From contig NZ_CP039451.1 in assembly GCF_004843725.1 (NCBI RefSeq), positions 2,858,001 to 2,922,000 of the forward strand: a stretch of 64,000 nt of DNA, in the 5' to 3' direction. Source of the stretch: Psychroserpens sp. NJDZ02. GTDB lineage: Bacteria; Bacteroidota; Bacteroidia; Flavobacteriales; Flavobacteriaceae. The position numbers were made by a program, and so were the translations under genes. Within the stretch, counting starts at the first letter, position 1; every line of letters starts with the position of its first letter. Under the pieces are notes generated by a model that saw only the letters and a program-made list of their open reading frames with translations, had not been told where the DNA came from and searched no databases. Of the stretch, positions 1-11,227 are shown one piece after another.

Positions 1-107
1 AATATCCTGATGGTGTTTATCATTATGTAGCAAGTACAACAGACGCGCCTAATGTACCAAAATGTTTAAAAGGTGTCGCCGCGATTAATAGTTTTTCATT
101 CCAATAA
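1..107 (+). CDS. YHYH-family protein, C-terminal fragment (cut by window edge)
   Basis: The frame is open from base 3 to the TAA at 105-107 and encodes the last 34 residues of a protein that starts outside the window. The tail contains YPDGVYHY followed by VPKCLKG. This matches the C-terminal signature of YHYH-domain proteins, and the complete neighbour at 1267-2397 has the comparable stretch SDYEYV...FPYVGRCVMG. It ends three bases before the next start, so it probably belongs to the same operon. The family has no established function. Assignment rests on a short tail, so it is moderately sure. Confidence 0.6.
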   Translation, partial: YPDGVYHYVASTTDAPNVPKCLKGVAAINSFSFQ

Positions 108-110
108 ATT

Positions 111-728
111 ATGAAAACAAAAATCATTATACTGCTAATGTTATTCACCGTGGTTACAGCGGTTAAGGCGCATAATCCATTGTCAGCAATGTATTATTTA
201 GAGCTGAACCAAGATATTAATATATTAAATATCAGTTTAAGTCAAAACGGTTTAAATGAAGCTCTAAAAAAACATTTTAGTGATTTGAATCTGGAAACAC
301 TATCAGCAACGGATTATAAACAAAAAGCAATTGGGTATATAAAAGATAATTTTAATTTAATTGTAAATGGGGTTAAAATTAAGCTTTTAGAAGGCGGGAT
401 AAAATTAGGAAACCATGAAACTGATTTGAAATTTATTATAGATATTTTTCCTAAACACATCAATACTTTGGATGTGCAGATTGACGCTTTTAAAGAAAAT
501 AATCAGCATCAATCCGTGTTTTCAATTGTTATAGATAATAAAACAAGCAGAGTTATTTTAAATAAAGAAAATAACTATAAAGTCGCACTAGAATTTAGTG
601 ATAATAAAGCGGTATTAAAAAAGGAAAAAATTAATAAAAGTTATCTGTTTGTTCTTTTTCTGATTCCGGTAGTAATCGTTACAAATAATTATATAAAAAA
701 ATCAAACCAAAATGAAACAGAATCTTAA
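111..728 (+). CDS. exported membrane-anchored protein of unknown function
   Basis: 205 residues. A signal peptide (about residues 1-20, ending VKA-HNPL) is followed by a soluble domain of about 150 residues and one C-terminal transmembrane helix (about 176-193), then a short lysine/asparagine-rich tail. The domain should therefore sit in the periplasm, tethered to the inner membrane. The layout (short secreted beta-rich domain starting with AH after the signal) recalls DUF6702-like flavobacterial proteins, but I cannot confirm membership. The last 17 bases overlap the start of the EF-hand gene, which suggests translational coupling within the YHYH operon. Confidence 0.6.
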   Translation: MKTKIIILLMLFTVVTAVKAHNPLSAMYYLELNQDINILNISLSQNGLNEALKKHFSDLNLETLSATDYKQKAIGYIKDNFNLIVNGVKIKLLEGGIKLGNHETDLKFIIDIFPKHINTLDVQIDAFKENNQHQSVFSIVIDNKTSRVILNKENNYKVALEFSDNKAVLKKEKINKSYLFVLFLIPVVIVTNNYIKKSNQNETES

Positions 729-1242
729 AACAACAGTAACTATTTTTTCAATGCTATTATGTTTTAGCGTATTTGCTCAAGGACATTCGGGCGGCGGTGG
801 TCGAGGCGGAAGAGGTGGCGGAAAAGGCCAAGATCGAGGTGGTAAACCGGATGCATCGGAGATCCTTTCAAAATTAGACACAAATAAGGATGAGGTTTTA
901 GACAAAGACGAAGCATCAAATGATAAAATGGGAAAAATAGCGGAGGATTTTGATGTTATTGATACTAATGAAGATGGCGTCATAGATTTAGATGAACTTA
1001 AAGCGTCATTGGACACTAGAAAACCTAAAAAGATTTCAGCTAAAAAAATACTTAAAGAAGTTGATGACAATGGAGATGGCACATTAAATGAATTAGAGAT
1101 CGCTGCTAAAAGTGAACTTATATTAATGGAGCATTTTAGTGAAATTGATACTAATAATGATGGTGAGCTTGACATAGAAGAATTGAAATCTTTTTTTAAT
1201 AAGGACGCTGGCGATAAGCCAGATCGTAAAAAAAGAGAATAA
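712..1242 (+). CDS. exported EF-hand protein with four calcium-binding loops
   Basis: 176 residues. A signal peptide (1-22, SVFA-Q) is followed by a Gly/Arg-rich stretch (about 24-45) and four canonical 12-residue EF-hand loops, at about 56-67, 84-95, 118-129 and 146-157, each with Asp at position 1 and Glu at position 12. The loops are arranged as two pairs, so calcium binding is likely. The start ATG lies inside the preceding gene, and no better internal start precedes the signal peptide. The acidic loops resemble those fused to the C-terminus of the YHYH lipoprotein at 1267-2397, which links the two functionally. The partner is unknown. Confidence 0.85.
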   Translation: MKQNLKTTVTIFSMLLCFSVFAQGHSGGGGRGGRGGGKGQDRGGKPDASEILSKLDTNKDEVLDKDEASNDKMGKIAEDFDVIDTNEDGVIDLDELKASLDTRKPKKISAKKILKEVDDNGDGTLNELEIAAKSELILMEHFSEIDTNNDGELDIEELKSFFNKDAGDKPDRKKRE

Positions 1243-1266
1243 TGTTTAACTATAGCGTAGTAAATT

Positions 1267-2397
1267 ATGAAAAATCAATTTAAAATAATAAGTTTTGTTT
1301 TAGTAGGACTTTTGTTTGGTTGTAATAGTCAAAAAAAGACAACAACGCATAGTCATGATGGTTCAGAAAATCATTCGCATGATACAGATCACGTGGTTGC
1401 ATCAACTAATAATTATTATGGGAACTATGATTTAGAAGATAGTGCCTTTGGGACTAAGACTAAAGTAACTATTGATGGAGATGTACGTATCATGGTGACT
1501 AATTCATTACCAAATCATAAAACAGGAACTTTTCCAAATCCAGGAAATCCTAACACTATAGCATCGCAAGACATCACTTATAAATTTCCGGTTACGCCAA
1601 AGTATACAGGAAAAGCACAATGGATGAGAGAACCAGGAGTTGCTTTAAACGGGATTAAATTTGAACCTCAAACTGCTGAGGTTGTTGTTTGTGACACAGG
1701 AGAAAATTATCGTGTCGAGGCTATTCAAGATGTTATAGATCTTGGTTTAGATTTTAACCATGCACACGTACAACCTACCGGAGCGTATCATTATCATGGA
1801 ACACCAACATCAATGATTTCTAAATTTGATAGTGGGCAAGATTTAGTTCATATTGGATTTGCACATGATGGTTTTCCTATGTACTATTCTAAAAGTGGAC
1901 AATACAAACCAAGTTTTAAATTATTAGATGGGACAAGAGCGGGAGAAGATTGTACTTATGACAATCCAAAACAACATATGAATATTTCTGTTGGTGGTCA
2001 TCATGACGGGACATATGGCTCAGATTACGAGTATGTCGCTGGTTATGGAGATTTAGATGAGTGTAATGGTATTACTGTAGCTGGCAAGTATATGTATTTA
2101 GTGACTAGCCAGTTTCCTTATGTTGGGCGTTGCGTTATGGGGGAAGTTGAAGCAGAACAACAAGGGCCACCAAATGGACAAGGTGATCGTCCTGATTCAG
2201 CTCAAATAATAGAACAAATGGATGCTAATAAGGATGGTAAACTTTCATTAAAGGAAGTTAAAGGCGCTTTAAAAGAAGACTTCTCTAAAATAGACGCCAA
2301 TTCAAATGGTTTTATTACTAAAGAAGAGTTGCAAAAATCGTCAAAAGGTGGAGATCAAGGACCGCGAAGAGGGCCTTCTCAAGGCGGAAGAAATTAA
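1267..2397 (+). CDS. YHYH-domain lipoprotein with His-rich N-terminus and C-terminal EF-hands
   Basis: 376 residues. The lipobox LFGC places the lipidated cysteine at 19. A histidine-rich linker follows (about 28-42, with HSHDG and HSHDTDH), of the kind that can bind transition metals. The YHYH domain spans about 45-300 and contains PTGAYHYHG (YHYH at 174-177), HIGFAHDGFP and GGHHDGTYGSDYEYV. Two EF-hand loops close the protein (319-330 and 343-354). The family is catalogued (YHYH, Pfam PF14240) but has no defined activity. The fusion of a YHYH domain to EF-hands suggests that calcium and a second metal are handled together; this is inference. Confidence 0.85.
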   Translation: MKNQFKIISFVLVGLLFGCNSQKKTTTHSHDGSENHSHDTDHVVASTNNYYGNYDLEDSAFGTKTKVTIDGDVRIMVTNSLPNHKTGTFPNPGNPNTIASQDITYKFPVTPKYTGKAQWMREPGVALNGIKFEPQTAEVVVCDTGENYRVEAIQDVIDLGLDFNHAHVQPTGAYHYHGTPTSMISKFDSGQDLVHIGFAHDGFPMYYSKSGQYKPSFKLLDGTRAGEDCTYDNPKQHMNISVGGHHDGTYGSDYEYVAGYGDLDECNGITVAGKYMYLVTSQFPYVGRCVMGEVEAEQQGPPNGQGDRPDSAQIIEQMDANKDGKLSLKEVKGALKEDFSKIDANSNGFITKEELQKSSKGGDQGPRRGPSQGGRN

Positions 2398-2469
2398 TTT
2401 ATAAAAAAAGCGCAAGTTATTTTTATAACACGCATCTAAAAGAACATAAATCACTAATAACTATATAAA

Positions 2470-3306
2470 ATGAAAAACGTATTTAAATTATCTTTTTTAA
2501 TATTAACCGCATGTACAGTCTTTGTATCATGTAGTGATGATGATGCCTCATCTAGTACAGATACAGATACAGACTCAGAAGGGACTACTGCAACATTACA
2601 TGCTGCTTTTAACGAGTTTAGTACAACTAACACGTCAATAGCATTAAGTGGTTCAAATGTAACCATACAAACTAATGGGTTACCTGATCATACATCTCCA
2701 TATTGGTCAAATACAGTGTCAAGAAGTTTAGTTGGTCCTGAAGGAGAAACAATGACTACTGTTTCTAGCTCAAATCACGCGTTGTGGGTAGAGCCGACAG
2801 TAACAAGTTACGATCAAATGGCACCTGGGAATATTGACGATTTTAACGGTTCATATTCATTAACAGTATCTGCAGATCCACAACTAGCAAGTAGCTCTAC
2901 AGCAACAGGATTAGGTGCCATTGGAATATCAATATCTGGAGCTGTAATTTATAATGATGAAGAAGGACCCAATGTGCCTTTAGATGACGCAGTTGGTTCT
3001 TTAGATTATACAGCAGCACATACAGGGCCGCAAAGTTACCATTACCATTTAGAGCCTAAAGCTTGGTCTAATGATGACGAAGAATTAATAGGTATTATAG
3101 CCGATGGTTTTTTTCTTTATGGACGTAAATGTAACGCAACAGGAACTTACCCTACAGATTTAGATGTATCAGGAGGGCATACAAGTACAACGCAACATAC
3201 AACAACTGCAGAGTACCATTACCATATTGAAAACGAATTATATTTAAACGCATACTATATATTATTCCCAGGTGACTATCAAGGAACTCCAAGCAATATT
3301 CAATAA
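2470..3306 (+). CDS. YHYH-family lipoprotein
   Basis: 278 residues. The lipobox VFVSC gives lipid attachment at Cys21, followed by SDDD and a Ser/Thr/Asp-rich linker. There are two YHYH motifs (190-193 and 249-252). The segment TNGLPDH matches TNSLPNH of the neighbouring YHYH lipoprotein, so the two are paralogues despite low overall identity. It lacks the His-rich linker and EF-hands of its neighbour. The 3' end overlaps the next gene by 35 bases. Function is unknown; the cell location is inferred as membrane-anchored, facing the periplasm or the surface. Confidence 0.8.
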   Translation: MKNVFKLSFLILTACTVFVSCSDDDASSSTDTDTDSEGTTATLHAAFNEFSTTNTSIALSGSNVTIQTNGLPDHTSPYWSNTVSRSLVGPEGETMTTVSSSNHALWVEPTVTSYDQMAPGNIDDFNGSYSLTVSADPQLASSSTATGLGAIGISISGAVIYNDEEGPNVPLDDAVGSLDYTAAHTGPQSYHYHLEPKAWSNDDEELIGIIADGFFLYGRKCNATGTYPTDLDVSGGHTSTTQHTTTAEYHYHIENELYLNAYYILFPGDYQGTPSNIQ

Positions 3307-3904
3307 AAGCTGTTTTTTATTCAGTTTTATAATCTTTTTTAGTTGTCAAGAAAAAGCAGTTAAAAAAGACGTGGTAAATAGTGCTCAAATTGAAATTTCT
3401 GAAATCGTAATCCCTAAGTCTAAATTAGTCTTTAAACAAAATATAGGGCTTGTGTATTATCAAGACAAGCCTTTTAATGGAATTTCGGTTTTATATTATC
3501 CAAACGGTATTAAAGCAGAAACAGTCGCTTATAAAAATGGAGAAAAAGAAGGGGCTTTTAAAAAGTGGTTTCAAGATGGGTTATTAAGCTTTGAAGCTTT
3601 TTATGTCAAAGGAAAATTAAACGGTATTTCTAAATCTTGGTGGTCTAATAGTAATTTAAGGTCAGAGTCTATTTTTGTAAACGGGATCGCAAATGGGGTT
3701 CAAAAACAATGGTATCTTTCTGGCGAAAAATTTAAACAGATGACCATTGTAAACGGTAGGGAAGAAGGTATGCAACAAGCATGGCGTCGTAATGGTAAAA
3801 TTTACAATAATTATGAAGCCAAAAACGGGCGTATTTTTGGATTAAAAAGAGCCAATTTATGTTTTCAATTAGAAGAAGAAATAGTACAAGATGAAAAAAT
3901 ATAA
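3272..3904 (+). CDS. MORN-repeat lipoprotein (YwqK-like)
   Basis: About 210 residues, starting at GTG 3272 inside the preceding gene. No ATG lies upstream of the hydrophobic signal, and the lipobox IIFFSC (Cys25) needs this start. The mature part carries four or five MORN_2-type repeats of the form YYPNG...KNGEKEG, WFQDGLL...VKGKLNG, WWSNSNL...VNGIANG and WYLSGEK...VNGREEG. Such repeats are found in proteins annotated as YwqK antitoxins, but in Bacteroidota they are usually exported proteins of unknown role. It overlaps its neighbours on both sides, so it belongs to the YHYH operon. Confidence 0.75.
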   Translation: MTIKELQAIFNKSCFLFSFIIFFSCQEKAVKKDVVNSAQIEISEIVIPKSKLVFKQNIGLVYYQDKPFNGISVLYYPNGIKAETVAYKNGEKEGAFKKWFQDGLLSFEAFYVKGKLNGISKSWWSNSNLRSESIFVNGIANGVQKQWYLSGEKFKQMTIVNGREEGMQQAWRRNGKIYNNYEAKNGRIFGLKRANLCFQLEEEIVQDEKI

Positions 3905-4556
3905 CCTAATAATTATAGCGCTAATTACTCTTATCGTGTTAAGTTGTAAAGAGCAAGTAGAAGAGAAAAGTAGTAGGGTAGATGGTCTTCCTTACTATAG
4001 TGATGCTAGTTTTACACCGCATTGGTTGGATAGTAAAAGTGAAGCTTTAAGTACATTCCATAAAATACCTGAGTTTAATTTAACGAACCAAGATGGTCAA
4101 AAAGTAACAGAGAAGACGTTTGAGAATAAAATTTATGTTACAGACTTCTTTTTTACATCATGTCCTGGGATTTGTCCAAAAATGACAGAAAACATGTCTG
4201 TTTTACAAGAGGCATTTAAGCATGATGCTGAGGTTTTATTATTGTCTCATTCAGTAACACCAGTAAAAGATTCTGTGTCAACATTAAAACATTACGCAGA
4301 AGGTAAAGGGGTAATTTCTAATAAATGGCATTTAGTAACTGGAGATCGAAAACAAATTTATGATCTAGGCCGTCAATCTTATTTTGTTGAAGAAGATTTG
4401 GGAGGAGAAAAGACAGATGATGATTTTTTACATACTGAAAACTTTGTGTTAATCGATAAGGATAAACACATCAGAGGAATATATAATGGTTTAAATAAAA
4501 CTGCTGTACAACAATTAATTGCAGATATTAAAACTTTAGAAATTGAAGATAAATAA
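3891..4556 (+). CDS. SCO1/SenC/PrrC family lipoprotein
   Basis: 221 residues. Lipoprotein signal with Cys19, then a thioredoxin-like fold. The copper/redox motif SCPGICP (Cys91 and Cys95) and the conserved His171 in FLHTENF are present, which are the three ligands that bind copper in SCO proteins. The family delivers copper to the CuA centre of cytochrome oxidase or acts as a thiol-disulfide reductase. It overlaps the MORN gene by 14 bases and is the last gene of the YHYH operon, being followed by a terminator. No oxidase genes are nearby, so its client may be one of the YHYH proteins (inference). Confidence 0.9.
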   Translation: MKKYNLIIIALITLIVLSCKEQVEEKSSRVDGLPYYSDASFTPHWLDSKSEALSTFHKIPEFNLTNQDGQKVTEKTFENKIYVTDFFFTSCPGICPKMTENMSVLQEAFKHDAEVLLLSHSVTPVKDSVSTLKHYAEGKGVISNKWHLVTGDRKQIYDLGRQSYFVEEDLGGEKTDDDFLHTENFVLIDKDKHIRGIYNGLNKTAVQQLIADIKTLEIEDK

Positions 4557-4577
4557 TTTTGGTTGATTATTTTTTTT

Positions 4578-4616
4578 GAAAAGCTTCGCTGTAATGGTGG
4601 AGCTTTTCTATTTTTA
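4578..4616 (+). terminator. intrinsic terminator of the YHYH/SCO operon
   Basis: The inverted repeat GAAAAGCT (4578-4585) and AGCTTTTC (4601-4608) is followed by a T-rich tract. It lies 22 bases after the SCO stop codon. Confidence 0.75.
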
Positions 4617-4633
4617 TAGAAATATTAAAACTT

Positions 4634-5731
4634 ATGAAAAAAGTAATATACCTTGTTTTTAGTCTTTCGCTAATAATAGGATTAGGAAGTTGTGGTGTTG
4701 GTAAGTATAAAACGGTACCAAAGTCAATAAAAACCACCTTTACTAATGTCGCTATTGCAACGTTAATAGAAGATGAAGCACTTAATGTTAGAGCTATTGA
4801 AATTATTGATACTATTGGCTTAGCTTATTTAACCTCAAAGGGTAAATTTGGTATGTATTTCCATAATGATGCGTCAGAGTTTAATGCCATTAAAAACACG
4901 TTTCCCATTCAAATAAAACATGATACAATTATTCCAAACTTTAGAGCATTAGCTGTTACGGATAATAAAGGTTTTGGATTAAGCATTGGGTCACCTGCAT
5001 TAGTCTTTAATTTGGATGTTGATTTGCATAAAAATACGGTGGTGTATCAAGAAAATCATGAGAAAGCATTTTATGATTCTATGGAGTTTTGGAATGACAG
5101 TGAAGGTATTGCGATCGGAGATCCTACAGACGATTGTTTAAGTGTTATTATTACTAGAGATAGAGGAAAAACTTGGACAAAACTATCGTGTGATGTTTTA
5201 CCAAAAGCAAAAGAGGGTGAAGCTGCATTTGCTGCAAGTGATACTAATATAGCTATTGTAGGCGATAAAACTTGGGTAGCCACAGGTGGTAAGGCTAGTC
5301 GTATTTTATATTCTCCTGATAAAGGAAGTAGTTGGGAGGTCTTTGATACACCAATGATACAAGGTCTTGAAACAACAGGGATCTATAGTCTAGATTTTTA
5401 TGATGAAAATAATGGCTTTGCTGTAGGGGGAGATTATACTAAAGCAGATGCTAATTTGGCTAATAAAATAAAGACTACTGATGGCGGAAAAACGTGGCAA
5501 ATTATGTCTGATGGCTCTGGACCTGGTTACAGAAGTTGTGTGCAATACGTGCCAAATAGTAATGCGCAGCAATTAGTGGCTATTGGTTTTAAGGGTATTG
5601 ATTACAGTAGTGATGCTGGTAATACTTGGACGCATTTAAGCGATGATGGGTATTATACGCTTAGGTTTATAAATGAGACTACAGCGTATGCAGCAGGTAA
5701 TAAGAAAATTAGTAAATTAACTTTTAAATAG
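4634..5731 (+). CDS. BNR/YCF48-like beta-propeller lipoprotein
   Basis: 365 residues with a lipobox at LGSC (Cys20). Repeated Asp-box/BNR-like blades are visible: ITRDRGKTWTKL, YSPDKGSSWEVF, KTTDGGKTWQIM and YSSDAGNTWTHL, with NGFAVGG and TTAYAAGN between them. Flavobacterial proteins of this kind are annotated as oxidoreductase or photosystem II stability/assembly-factor-like, but the fold only indicates a secreted beta-propeller and no substrate can be read. It stands alone, with a terminator on each side. Confidence 0.8.
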   Translation: MKKVIYLVFSLSLIIGLGSCGVGKYKTVPKSIKTTFTNVAIATLIEDEALNVRAIEIIDTIGLAYLTSKGKFGMYFHNDASEFNAIKNTFPIQIKHDTIIPNFRALAVTDNKGFGLSIGSPALVFNLDVDLHKNTVVYQENHEKAFYDSMEFWNDSEGIAIGDPTDDCLSVIITRDRGKTWTKLSCDVLPKAKEGEAAFAASDTNIAIVGDKTWVATGGKASRILYSPDKGSSWEVFDTPMIQGLETTGIYSLDFYDENNGFAVGGDYTKADANLANKIKTTDGGKTWQIMSDGSGPGYRSCVQYVPNSNAQQLVAIGFKGIDYSSDAGNTWTHLSDDGYYTLRFINETTAYAAGNKKISKLTFK

Positions 5732-5754
5732 ACTGTTTTTAATAGTATAAACAG

Positions 5755-5780
5755 CGTCATTCTGAATTTATTTCAGAATT
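5755..5780 (-). repeat. solitary copy of the TTCTGAA-type hairpin repeat
   Basis: Inverted repeat TTCTGAA ... TTCAGAA preceded by CGTCA, lying between convergent genes. It is related to the hairpins of the array at 30417-31063, which read GATACTGAA ... TTCAGTATGACG on the plus strand; this copy is in the opposite orientation. It shows the element is dispersed and not confined to that array. Confidence 0.55.
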
Positions 5781-5782
5781 AC

Positions 5783-5805
5783 ATTATTATTATTATTATT
5801 ATTAT
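5783..5805. repeat. ATT trinucleotide repeat
   Basis: More than seven uninterrupted ATT units directly after the hairpin repeat, in an intergenic region. It is a simple-sequence tract that could vary in length, but it is not placed near a start codon. Confidence 0.85.
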
Positions 5806-5841
5806 CAAATGATGTAAAACTAAAAGAAGTTAAATCAGAGC

Positions 5842-5873
5842 AAAAAAAAGAAGCCAATTGGCTTCTTTTTTTT
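5842..5873. terminator. bidirectional intrinsic terminator
   Basis: A perfect 32-base palindrome: eight A, GAAGCC, AATTGG-centred core, CTTC, eight T. It lies between the convergent genes at 4634-5731 and 5872-6318 and can serve both; its right end overlaps the minus-strand stop codon. Confidence 0.9.
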
Positions 5874-6318
5874 ATTTCTTATTGTCTTTATGCCTACCTC
5901 TAAACTCTTCAATCATTTTTCTTTTAAAGGAGCGTTCTGCATTAAATAATAAGACTATTTTTTTATAACTTATTATTTGGGAGAGTTTGTCTATATATAC
6001 TTTATAGCTCTTAACTTTGGCTTCTTCCAAGTCTTGCATGTCTTTTATTAAAGCTTTAGCTTCACTATCGGTTAATTTCTTAACATCAATATTGTTTCTT
6101 TTAGCTTGAGACACATCTCGTAAGATGTGTTTTTCTTCATCAAACTTATTGTAAATAGGCCAAAAGGCCTCAGCTTCCTTAGGTGTAAAGTCTAATTGCT
6201 CTGTGATATGTGCAACTTTTAATGCTTTTAATTTTTCATGCTGTTTTGCTTTGTCTTTTTGCGCGATAGCACTAAAAGATAGGAGTAAGACAAATAATGT
6301 TATAAGAGGTGTTTTCAT
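5872..6318 (-). CDS. exported Spy/CpxP-like protein (often called sensor of ECF-type sigma factor)
   Basis: 148 residues. A signal peptide (about 1-19, SAIA-Q) is followed by an all-helical, Lys/Glu-rich protein with ITEQLDFTPKEAEAFWPIYNKFDEEK. The pattern LxLTPxEAxxFWPxY is typical of the flavobacterial family encoded beside ECF sigma factors and resembles the Spy/CpxP LTxEQ helices. It is the third gene of a leftward sigma, membrane protein, Spy-like module. A role in sensing envelope stress is inferred from this context only. Confidence 0.7.
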   Translation of the reverse strand: MKTPLITLFVLLLSFSAIAQKDKAKQHEKLKALKVAHITEQLDFTPKEAEAFWPIYNKFDEEKHILRDVSQAKRNNIDVKKLTDSEAKALIKDMQDLEEAKVKSYKVYIDKLSQIISYKKIVLLFNAERSFKRKMIEEFRGRHKDNKK

Positions 6319-6330
6319 TGTCGTGTTTTT

Positions 6331-6813
6331 TTAGTCTTGATATAAGTCGTTTAAGTCTATATCGTCTATATAGTCATCGATTTCTATTAAATCATAAGTA
6401 ATAAAATCGGTTTGTGATAATTCAGAATCACCAATTAATAAGTTAAGATCATTAATCTCTATTTCATCTAAAATATAGTTTTCTACTGTTACCGTATCTA
6501 AGGCGTCTAAAGTTGGTGTTGTTTTAAATAAATTTAAATTAAATAATAAAACGATTGCTGCAGCAGCACTTGATATAGATAATATTGTTTTTTTGCTAAA
6601 TAGGTTAAATACTTTTGGTTCTGGTTTATCTATTTTAGATAAGATAGCAGAATCGAGCGTGTCAAAGTAATTTTCTGGAGTTTTAAAACCTGAAACTTTA
6701 GTGTGCGTCTCTAATAGTGTTTGTGTTAGAATAGCATCTTCTAATCCTTCAAAATAGTTTTTTGGGACTTTAAATCCAGAAGTATTAATTGTATTTAAGT
6801 TTTCTTTTTTCAT
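6331..6813 (-). CDS. membrane protein, candidate anti-sigma factor
   Basis: 160 residues. The N-terminal cytoplasmic part contains an internal duplication, FKVPKNYFEGLEDAIL (about 13-28) and FKTPENYFDTLDSAIL (about 43-58). One transmembrane helix follows (about 78-96), then a very acidic periplasmic tail rich in Asp, Glu and Ile. It lies between the ECF sigma gene and the Spy-like gene on the same strand, which is the usual place for an anti-sigma factor. No zinc-binding ASD motif (HxxxCxxC) is present, so if it is an anti-sigma factor it is of a different kind. Confidence 0.6.
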   Translation of the reverse strand: MKKENLNTINTSGFKVPKNYFEGLEDAILTQTLLETHTKVSGFKTPENYFDTLDSAILSKIDKPEPKVFNLFSKKTILSISSAAAAIVLLFNLNLFKTTPTLDALDTVTVENYILDEIEINDLNLLIGDSELSQTDFITYDLIEIDDYIDDIDLNDLYQD

Positions 6814-6846
6814 TGTACTAGTAAGACTATCAAAATCTTAAATGGT

Positions 6847-7392
6847 TTAATTTGCTTTTAAATATGTTTCAATTTTTTTAGAGGCTATATGATAAGATGC
6901 TTTAAGTGCACCTTCGCTGGTCTCTAATATTTCGGATAATTCGCTATATTTTAAATCCTGAAAATATTTCATATTAAACACTAATTGTTGTTTTTCTGGA
7001 AGCGTCGCTATTGCTTTTTGTAATTTTAACTGAATAGCCTCTCCTTCAAAATAAACGTCAGATTCTAAATTATTAATTAATAGATCCTGAACCTCTTCAT
7101 TATTAATGTTTTTTAGTTTTGAATTTCTTTTTAAGTGTGTTAAAGATTCATTAGTTGCGATTCTGTAAATCCAAGAATATAATTGACTGTCTCCGTTAAA
7201 TTTATTAATGTTCTTGAAGACTTTAATAAAAGTATTCTGTAATACATCGTCCGCATCGTCATGAGACTTTACAATATGTCTGATGTGCCAATATAACCGC
7301 TCTTTATAGCGTGTTATTAGAGTTTTAAAAGCAGCATTTTTATCTTTATCAGATTGTAGTTGCTTTATTAAAATGGTTTCGTTGTCCGACAT
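6847..7392 (-). CDS. ECF-type RNA polymerase sigma factor
   Basis: 181 residues. The sigma-70 region 2 is visible at about 25-90 (YKERLYWHIRHIV, DADDVLQNTFIKVF, SWIYRIATNESLTHLKR). Region 4 is at about 125-180 (LPEKQQLVFNMKYFQDLKY, LSEILETSEGALKASYHIA). It lacks regions 1 and 3, as expected of the ECF group. It should direct polymerase to a small regulon, probably including its own operon with the two downstream genes at 6331-6813 and 5872-6318. Confidence 0.93.
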   Translation of the reverse strand: MSDNETILIKQLQSDKDKNAAFKTLITRYKERLYWHIRHIVKSHDDADDVLQNTFIKVFKNINKFNGDSQLYSWIYRIATNESLTHLKRNSKLKNINNEEVQDLLINNLESDVYFEGEAIQLKLQKAIATLPEKQQLVFNMKYFQDLKYSELSEILETSEGALKASYHIASKKIETYLKAN

Positions 7393-9496: not shown

Positions 9497-11227
9497 TTAG
9501 TTTAGCTGCATATCTTTTAATATAGCATCAATCTTACTTTCCAATTTCTGTTCCGTAGCTTCAAATTCTGACACATTGTCTAAAGTGGTGTTAACGCTGA
9601 TATAGAATTTTATTTTTGGTTCTGTACCACTTGGTCTTAATGCAATTTTACTACCATCTTCTGTATAGTAAATTAAAACATTAGATTTAGGGACGTCTAT
9701 TACAGTTGTTGTATTGTCTAGTGTGTTTTTTGCTTCGGATAATTGGTAGTCTTCAATTTTTATGACTTTAGAGCCATTAACAGTTGTTAAAGGATTTTCT
9801 CTAGCATCAATCATCATTTGTTTGATTTCTTGCGCACCTTCAATACCTTTTTTAGTGGTTGATATCAATCGCTCCTTATAAAAACCATGTTTAGTGTAAA
9901 GTTGTATTAATTCTTTATAAAAAGAACTGCCTTTTGCTTTGGCTTGAGCTGCAATTTCACAAGCAAGTAAAGCAGAGGTTACAGCATCTTTGTCTCTTAC
10001 AAAGTCTCCCACCATAAAACCAAAACTTTCCTCTCCACCACCAATAAACTCTTGGTTAGGAAAGTCTTTAATCATTTTCGCAATCCATTTAAATCCGGTC
10101 AAACCAATTTTACATTCTACGTTAAAGGCATCTGCCAAAGCAGACATCATTGGAGTAGATACTATGGTGCTTCCTATAAATTGATTGTCATTTATCTTGT
10201 TATTACTTTTCCATTGTTGTAATAAAAACTCGGTCATCATGACCATAGTTTGATTTCCGTTTAATAAAATCATTTTATTATCAAGACCTCTTACAGCAAC
10301 ACCAACTCTGTCACTGTCAGGATCTGTTCCAATAACAATGTCTCCTTCAACTTTTTCAGCTAAATCTAAAGCCATTTTCAGTGCTTCAGGTTCTTCTGGG
10401 TTTGGAGATTTTACTGTTGGGAAATCGCCATTAGGCTCACGTTGCTCTTCTACAATATGGACATTTTTGTATCCAGCACGTTTAAAAGTTTCTGGAATAG
10501 TGGTAATTGACGTCCCGTGTAACGATGTAAATACAACATTTAATTTGTCTTTATCTTTTTGAGGCGTGTCAAAACTTCCGTTTTTTACTGCTGCGTCAAT
10601 AAATACGTTATCTACAGCTTCGCCTATATATTCAATTAATTCTGGTTTGGCTTCAAATTTAATTTCGGCATAATCAAGCGCATTAATTAGGTTAATAATT
10701 TCAGCATCTTGTGGTGGTACTAATTGTCCGCCATCTTGCCAATACACTTTATAACCATTATATTCTGGTGGGTTATGTGATGCTGTTAGTACAATACCAC
10801 AGTGGCATCCTAAATGTTTTAAAGCAAACGATAACTCTGGAGTAGGGCGTAGGTCTTCAAATAAATAAACTTTGATGTTATTGGCAGAAAAGACATCGGC
10901 TACAACTTTTGCTAAACTCTTACTATTATGTCTACAGTCAAAAGCAATGGCGACTTTAAGTGTTTCTCCAGGAAAAACTTGGTGCATATAATTGCTAATT
11001 CCTTGTGTGTTTTTACCTAAAGTATATTTGTTTATTCTGTTGGTCCCGATACCCATAACACCACGCATACCACCAGTACCAAACTCTAAGTTTTTATAAA
11101 AACTTTCTTTAAGCTCTGTAGGTTCTACCGCAATAAGGTTTTTTATATAATCTTGTGTGTCTTTATCAAAAGCTGGTGTTAGCCAAGTATTGACTCTTTC
11201 TAAAAGTTCTGGATCTATGTGTCTCAT
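9497..11227 (-). CDS. phosphoglucomutase/phosphomannomutase family protein
   Basis: 576 residues from the ATG at 11227. An upstream TTG at 11248 would add seven residues of no family resemblance. It has the four alpha-D-phosphohexomutase parts: the phosphoserine loop [11 protein letters not shown] (Ser about 150), the metal loop [10 protein letters not shown], the sugar-binding loop GGEESFGFM and the phosphate-binding RPSGTEPK near the C-terminus. It interconverts hexose (or pentose) 1- and 6-phosphates in the cytoplasm, feeding nucleotide-sugar synthesis. Length matches the longer phosphopentomutase/PGM2-like branch. Confidence 0.93.

Follow-up and report, generated by a model that had tools for sequence, protein, structure and literature searches.

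In Psychroserpens sp. NJDZ02 the first bases of a window of 64,000 nucleotides (bases 2,858,001–2,922,000 of the 4.32-Mb single-contig genome) carry the end of a gene cluster for exported proteins. The core of this cluster is a cassette of three lipoprotein genes, YHYH4, MORN and SCO (2470–4556), which is common to many Bacteroidota. Our comparisons show that the three genes are exchanged as a unit and that the SCO protein of the cassette is a dedicated one, apart from the SCO proteins of cytochrome oxidase. The best reading of these data, which we regard as somewhat probable, is that YHYH4 receives copper, or another metal, from SCO. Lipoproteins, signal peptides and transmembrane segments were assigned here from motif patterns or by inspection. 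The elements of the core are as follows:

2470–3306 (+), YHYH4 lipoprotein, cassette gene 1 (PF14240, E 1e-11)
3272–3904 (+), MORN-repeat lipoprotein with a GTG start at 3272, cassette gene 2 (MORN_2, E 7e-8)
3891–4556 (+), SCO1/SenC lipoprotein, cassette gene 3 (SCO1-SenC, E 4e-26)
2420–4550 (edges approximate), block diverged from the sister genome G005, corresponding to the three-gene cassette (DNA comparison)
4578–4608 (+), terminator-like hairpin 3′ of SCO, 14 pairs followed by TATTTTTATA

The linkage of the three genes was followed in several sets of genomes, with genes called by a simple script and labeled with profiles built on the loci of the first round. In this round PF14240 matches were found in 22 of 60 genomes, our own among them, and 29 fetched stretches together with our own locus (L002) contained twenty YHYH4–MORN–SCO cassettes in 19 loci. 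YHYH4 was the best match of 22 proteins, and the two lacking MORN and SCO are 440-aa forms. Named-species genomes were scanned with the YHYH4 alignment and the best 80 of 560 relatives were used; these loci, all found via YHYH4 itself and four of them repeating first-round genomes, span Flavobacteriaceae, Saprospiraceae, Chitinophagales and genera such as Algoriphagus, Echinicola, Dyadobacter and Roseivirga. Of the 80 loci, 71 have the order YHYH4–MORN–SCO, in 70 cases strictly consecutive. Five of the remaining loci have SCO without a called MORN gene, three have MORN without SCO, and one (L084), not called as YHYH4, was entered as a miss.

To lessen the bias of loci found via YHYH4, two evenly drawn samples of the phylum were included; with the thresholds applied, YHYH was detected in 14 of 148 genomes of the first and 38 of 395 of the second. 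With YHYH4 type called at a profile E of 1e-65 or better and our own genome left out, SCO lies at most two genes from YHYH4 in 18 of 19 YHYH4-type loci (G010 is also a first-round locus and G164 comes from the first sample only); 16 loci have MORN and SCO, two SCO only (L190, L204) and one MORN only (L209). Taking all fetched loci with duplicates removed, the next gene is MORN or SCO for 104/131 YHYH4-labeled proteins, and neither directly follows any of the 72 YHYH genes of the other labeled groups, 17 of which have a YHYH4 gene after them. The adjacency is poorly explained by chance: our genome has four PF02630 (SCO) matches, one of them weak, yet SCO follows YHYH4 in nearly all YHYH4-type loci examined.

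These counts narrow a proposal made in an earlier note on this DNA, according to which the YHYH proteins are loaded with metal by SCO, with EF-hand and MORN genes as parts of the same system. As a statement on YHYH at large the proposal is too broad; read in that way, it would fall under the condition that the note itself had named as refuting it. For the YHYH4 subfamily it gains support, with SCO and MORN tied to these genes and the copper ligands of SCO retained. The EF-hands are accessory: of 79 gene runs upstream, 30 contain an EF-hand gene or the EF-fused YHYH gene.

The comparison with closely related genomes demonstrates the exchange of the trio. Between our genome and G005 the proteins YHYH4, MORN and SCO are only 51%, 44% and 65% identical, whereas the other genes of the cluster are 82–99% identical, with the small protein after sigma at 69%. 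Against G003 the same three proteins reach 97%, 90% and 97%. At the DNA level the divergence from G005 extends from near 2420 to near 4550; it is flanked by sequence of 96–100% identity over about 1667–2366 and 95–100% from 4567 on, and further upstream (1267–1666) the identity is 75–91%. Among nine same-genus genomes a PF14240 match is absent in two, G006 (75% complete) and G008, and the extra SCO is likewise absent from both.

The SCO protein matches PF02630 with 92.1 bits (cut-off 22.8) and carries CPGICP and LHTE, that is, the CxxxC motif and the distal His which serve as copper ligands. As the earlier note had said of the window protein, these residues are kept, and they are kept in its relatives: both Cys are present in 78/78 SCOs of the named loci and the distal His in 77/78, and in the phylum samples the Cys pair and the distal His are found in 17/17. 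The four PF02630 matches of our genome comprise an oxidase-linked, a FeoA/FeoB-linked and the cassette SCO besides the weak fourth. In agreement with the earlier note no cytochrome oxidase is nearby; the oxidase genes lie at about 2.15 Mb and have their own SCO (UbiA-type, COX3 twice, COX4, SCO, DUF420). A tree of 72 rows was calculated from 44 cassette SCOs (20 of the first round and every third later one) and 28 others. All 44 cassette SCOs are on one side of a 99/94 branch, in a tree whose bootstrap had not fully settled and which contains five long rows; SCOs of the FeoA-linked type are nearest to them, and the oxidase type is further away. The FeoA/FeoB-linked SCO of our genome is located directly before the FeoA and FeoB genes (L066:6749-9966, about 1.443 Mb).

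The presumed client belongs to a large family, with at least 3809 YHYH4 relatives at E 1e-5 among the 7996 candidates sharing most words, which alone were scored. PF14240 (cut-off 25 bits) is matched by YHYH4 with 45.4 bits, by the upstream YHYHEF protein with 180.6 bits, and by 18/18 members of A1 at E 0.01. Conservation was counted after a length filter which dropped 7 of 87 YHYH4-labeled and 1 of 76 MORN rows. Seven His are invariant in YHYH4 (80/80 rows), mostly within two similar D..H..YHYH units, and the residues of a predicted Zn site, the His of the two units together with D179 and D232, are also present in all 80. Two or more YHYH motifs occur in 85/87 YHYH4-labeled proteins; YHYHEF has one intact unit. 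The structure model of YHYH4 (predicted local distance difference test score 78.8) gave no PDB match of weight and did match models of phage YHYH proteins (Cyanophage S-RIM14, E 6e-8). In the MORN lipoprotein a C-terminal stretch, NYEAKNGRIFG..RANLC, is conserved, and the C-terminal Cys197 is invariant (75/75).

The three lipoproteins differ in the residues following the lipid Cys. YHYH4 has an acidic stretch (C-SDDD), and at least two acidic residues at positions +2 to +6 are found in YHYH4 in 71/77, in SCO in 13/70, in MORN in 6/48 and in YHYHEF in 0/10 proteins. These counts are limited to genes with a called lipid Cys (YHYH4 77/87, SCO 70/78, MORN 48/76), and Fisher values on them ignore relatedness; a cruder caller gave 51/62, 10/64 and 5/46 for YHYH4, SCO and MORN. 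Since the acidic tail resembles SDDFE and SDDDD, the surface-export signals of Flavobacterium and Bacteroides (PMC5080379), YHYH4 is predicted to be on the surface, with SCO and MORN facing the periplasm.

We picture the trio as one putative metal-maturation unit. The SCO protein, predicted to face the periplasm, would hand over copper, or another metal, from its CxxxC and His site to YHYH4 before the latter is flipped to the cell surface, and the MORN lipoprotein might act as scaffold or docking partner. Copper would be the likeliest metal because SCO keeps its copper ligands. Such a role has a counterpart in Streptomyces lividans, where Sco is needed for the maturation of GlxA at low copper (PMC4736821), an exported copper protein other than the oxidase. 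In our case maturation is proposed from linkage and block exchange, the client would be a YHYH lipoprotein, and SCO is encoded in a three-gene cassette with client and MORN.

The window cuts the cluster, which starts about 6.8 kb upstream of it. The genes before the cassette are listed below, those outside the window in the coordinates of our own locus L002, whose position 10001 is window base 1:

L002:3197-3784, extracytoplasmic function (ECF) sigma factor (Pfam scan)
L002:3796-4140, small protein after sigma (no Pfam family over the cut-off)
L002:4143-4604, LTXXQ protein with a hydrophobic stretch at the N-terminus
L002:4741-5025, EF-hand protein with two loops
L002:5058-6488, CotH
L002:6603-7352, DUF6090-like protein (match below cut-off)
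L002:7446-8489, YHYH1
L002:8520-9137, DUFa, DUF6702-like
L002:9127-10107, YHYH2, third YHYH gene, 326 aa (PF14240, E 6e-24), 3′ end at window 1–107 (+)
111–728 (+), DUFb, exported and DUF6702-like, with VKA|HNP (His after the apparent signal peptide), a GNHET motif and a hydrophobic C-terminal stretch
712–1242 (+), EF176, exported, four EF-hand-like loops (Pfam EF-hands)
1267–2397 (+), YHYHEF lipoprotein: a His-rich linker, a canonical YHYH domain and, at the C-terminus, two EF-hand loops (PF14240, E 4e-53)

The gene positions, reading frames and Pfam families of the earlier note were correct, and so were its overlaps at 712/728, 3272/3306 and 3891/3904. The third of its three YHYH paralogues is real, with the last 107 bases alone inside the window; YHYHEF indeed combines the His-rich linker HSHDGSENHSHDTDH with two EF-hand loops, and EF176 is a free four-EF-hand protein, the first loop having E for the usual G. 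A 72-nt gap and the exchange boundary lie between 2397 and 2470, so the single transcription unit that had been proposed is no more than a possibility. The hairpin at 4578–4608 is a plausible candidate for the single terminator postulated at the end; five such sites were found in 1–6000 compared with 2.5 ± 2.0 in shuffles.

The gene at 111–728, unnamed in the earlier note, encodes a DUF6702-like protein. DUFa and DUFb are paralogues (phmmer 9e-16 and 3e-15), and DUFb has no Pfam match of its own; DUFa reaches 15.9 bits with PF20420 against a cut-off of 24, and many of its listed homologues have PF20420 or are named DUF6702 by NCBI. A mature N-terminal His is present in 121/121 aligned rows (DUFa and 120 listed of 227 homologues), the cleavage site being judged by eye. 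An immunoglobulin-like fold of the anglerase kind was found as well. Some YHYH genes of the other groups are located directly before such a gene, and in this island too YHYH genes are paired with genes for DUF6702-like proteins, putative metal carriers. Of the published DUF6702 and anglerase (Ang-1/HupE) metalloproteins, the DUF6702 protein was modeled with His1, His28 and His32 (PMC12537917); here, in contrast, the carriers are encoded after YHYH genes and share a conserved His in GH.T, and the main text of that paper does not mention YHYH. In a Deinococcus plasmid (L165:6785-7879) a HupE/UreJ gene follows YHYH; in its product the signal peptide is followed by a His, and the exported part contains an EF-hand-like loop.

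The ECF sigma factor, the small protein and the helical LTXXQ-type protein with its N-terminal hydrophobic stretch form one run, in an arrangement similar to that of CnrYXH (PMC7689651). Unlike there, no efflux genes were seen in the run, and the LTXXQ protein has one invariant His (35/35) and its best PDB sequence match is Spy (E 0.0022), not CnrX. At E 0.01 Metal_resist is matched by 10/21 and LTXXQ by 9/21 of these proteins. In the part of the loci that possess it, this triad could switch the island on in response to metal in the manner of CnrYXH; metal sensing by the triad is a guess from this analogy.

A wider proposal, which we offer tentatively and think less probable than the loading of YHYH4 itself, is that the YHYH proteins form a new class of exported copper proteins, or of proteins with another metal, and that its branches would have different delivery partners: SCO and MORN for the surface YHYH4, and for others a carrier that begins with His (DUF6702-like or, in the Deinococcus plasmid, HupE/UreJ). 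The ECF sigma/LTXXQ triad, where present, would adjust the expression of the island to the level of metal.

Several points weigh against loading by SCO and its possible metal control. Linkage does not prove transfer, and the next-gene rule fails for the rest of the 131 YHYH4-labeled proteins, among them divergent forms of greater length, copies in tandem and genes at the end of a contig. As the YHYH4 model has no match to a solved fold, the His cannot be placed round a site. The YHYH domain, known from jumbo-phage tail proteins, has been predicted to be a Zn-dependent hydrolase (PMC7824862), and the characterized DUF6702 protein has a preference for Ni over Cu (PMC12537917). The SCO protein could be a thiol–disulfide enzyme, given MORN Cys197 and a near-invariant Cys221 in YHYH4. 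Finally, sigma and LTXXQ occur together in only 26 of 79 upstream runs, and by sequence the LTXXQ protein is closer to Spy than to CnrX.

A first alternative is that YHYH4 is a zinc-dependent surface hydrolase and that SCO, carrying no copper, maintains the proper state of thiols, for example that of the C-terminal Cys of MORN. The three His and one Asp per unit fit the Zn site predicted for the phage domain (PMC7824862), which belongs to the same Pfam family and has conserved His and Asp; YHYH4 differs from this tail module in being a lipoprotein encoded on the chromosome, in having two YHYH units and in its association with SCO. The match to the phage models and the invariance of Cys197 also favor a hydrolase served by a thiol-active SCO. 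A pure thiol enzyme, however, should not need the distal His which is nearly always retained in the cassette SCOs, and we consider this explanation rather unlikely. The island could also serve resistance by sequestration, with YHYH, EF-hand and DUF6702-like proteins binding excess metal and SCO and MORN merely co-regulated. This would suit the ligand-rich proteins, the ECF triad, the invariant His and Metal_resist matches of its LTXXQ protein, and the term metal sequesterase used for DUF6702 (PMC12537917), but a passive sponge leaves the block exchange of the trio and the separate SCO branch unexplained, and we judge it improbable. That the trio serves respiration, SCO maturing the CuA site of the oxidase as SCO proteins classically do and YHYH4 being a passenger, is very improbable, as another SCO is present among the oxidase genes and the cassette SCOs do not mix with the oxidase group in the tree.

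If SCO loads YHYH4, the short list of known SCO targets other than cytochrome oxidase could gain a further client. For the large YHYH family the literature found offers the Zn-hydrolase prediction and no tested function, and the cassette-specific SCO and the neighboring DUF6702-like carriers are a testable clue to YHYH cargo and maturation.

For Pseudomonadota and Deinococcota the YHYH neighbors come from plasmid records only; in Rhodobacterales YHYH genes adjoin genes of the YbhB/PEBP family (L196 and L200, Loktanella plasmids; L198, plasmid of Rhodobacteraceae SC52). Past the terminator of our locus a BNR-repeat/Ycf48-like lipoprotein is encoded at 4634–5731, and such a gene adjoins the cassette in the seven genus relatives read and in some other Flavobacteriaceae, but only rarely in the distant loci. 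It is followed by a region (5872–7392) arranged tail to tail with the cluster, with a second ECF-type sigma gene at 6847–7392 (minus strand) and then genes for 160-aa and 148-aa proteins. A similar sigma gene is found at the same place in the genus relatives read.

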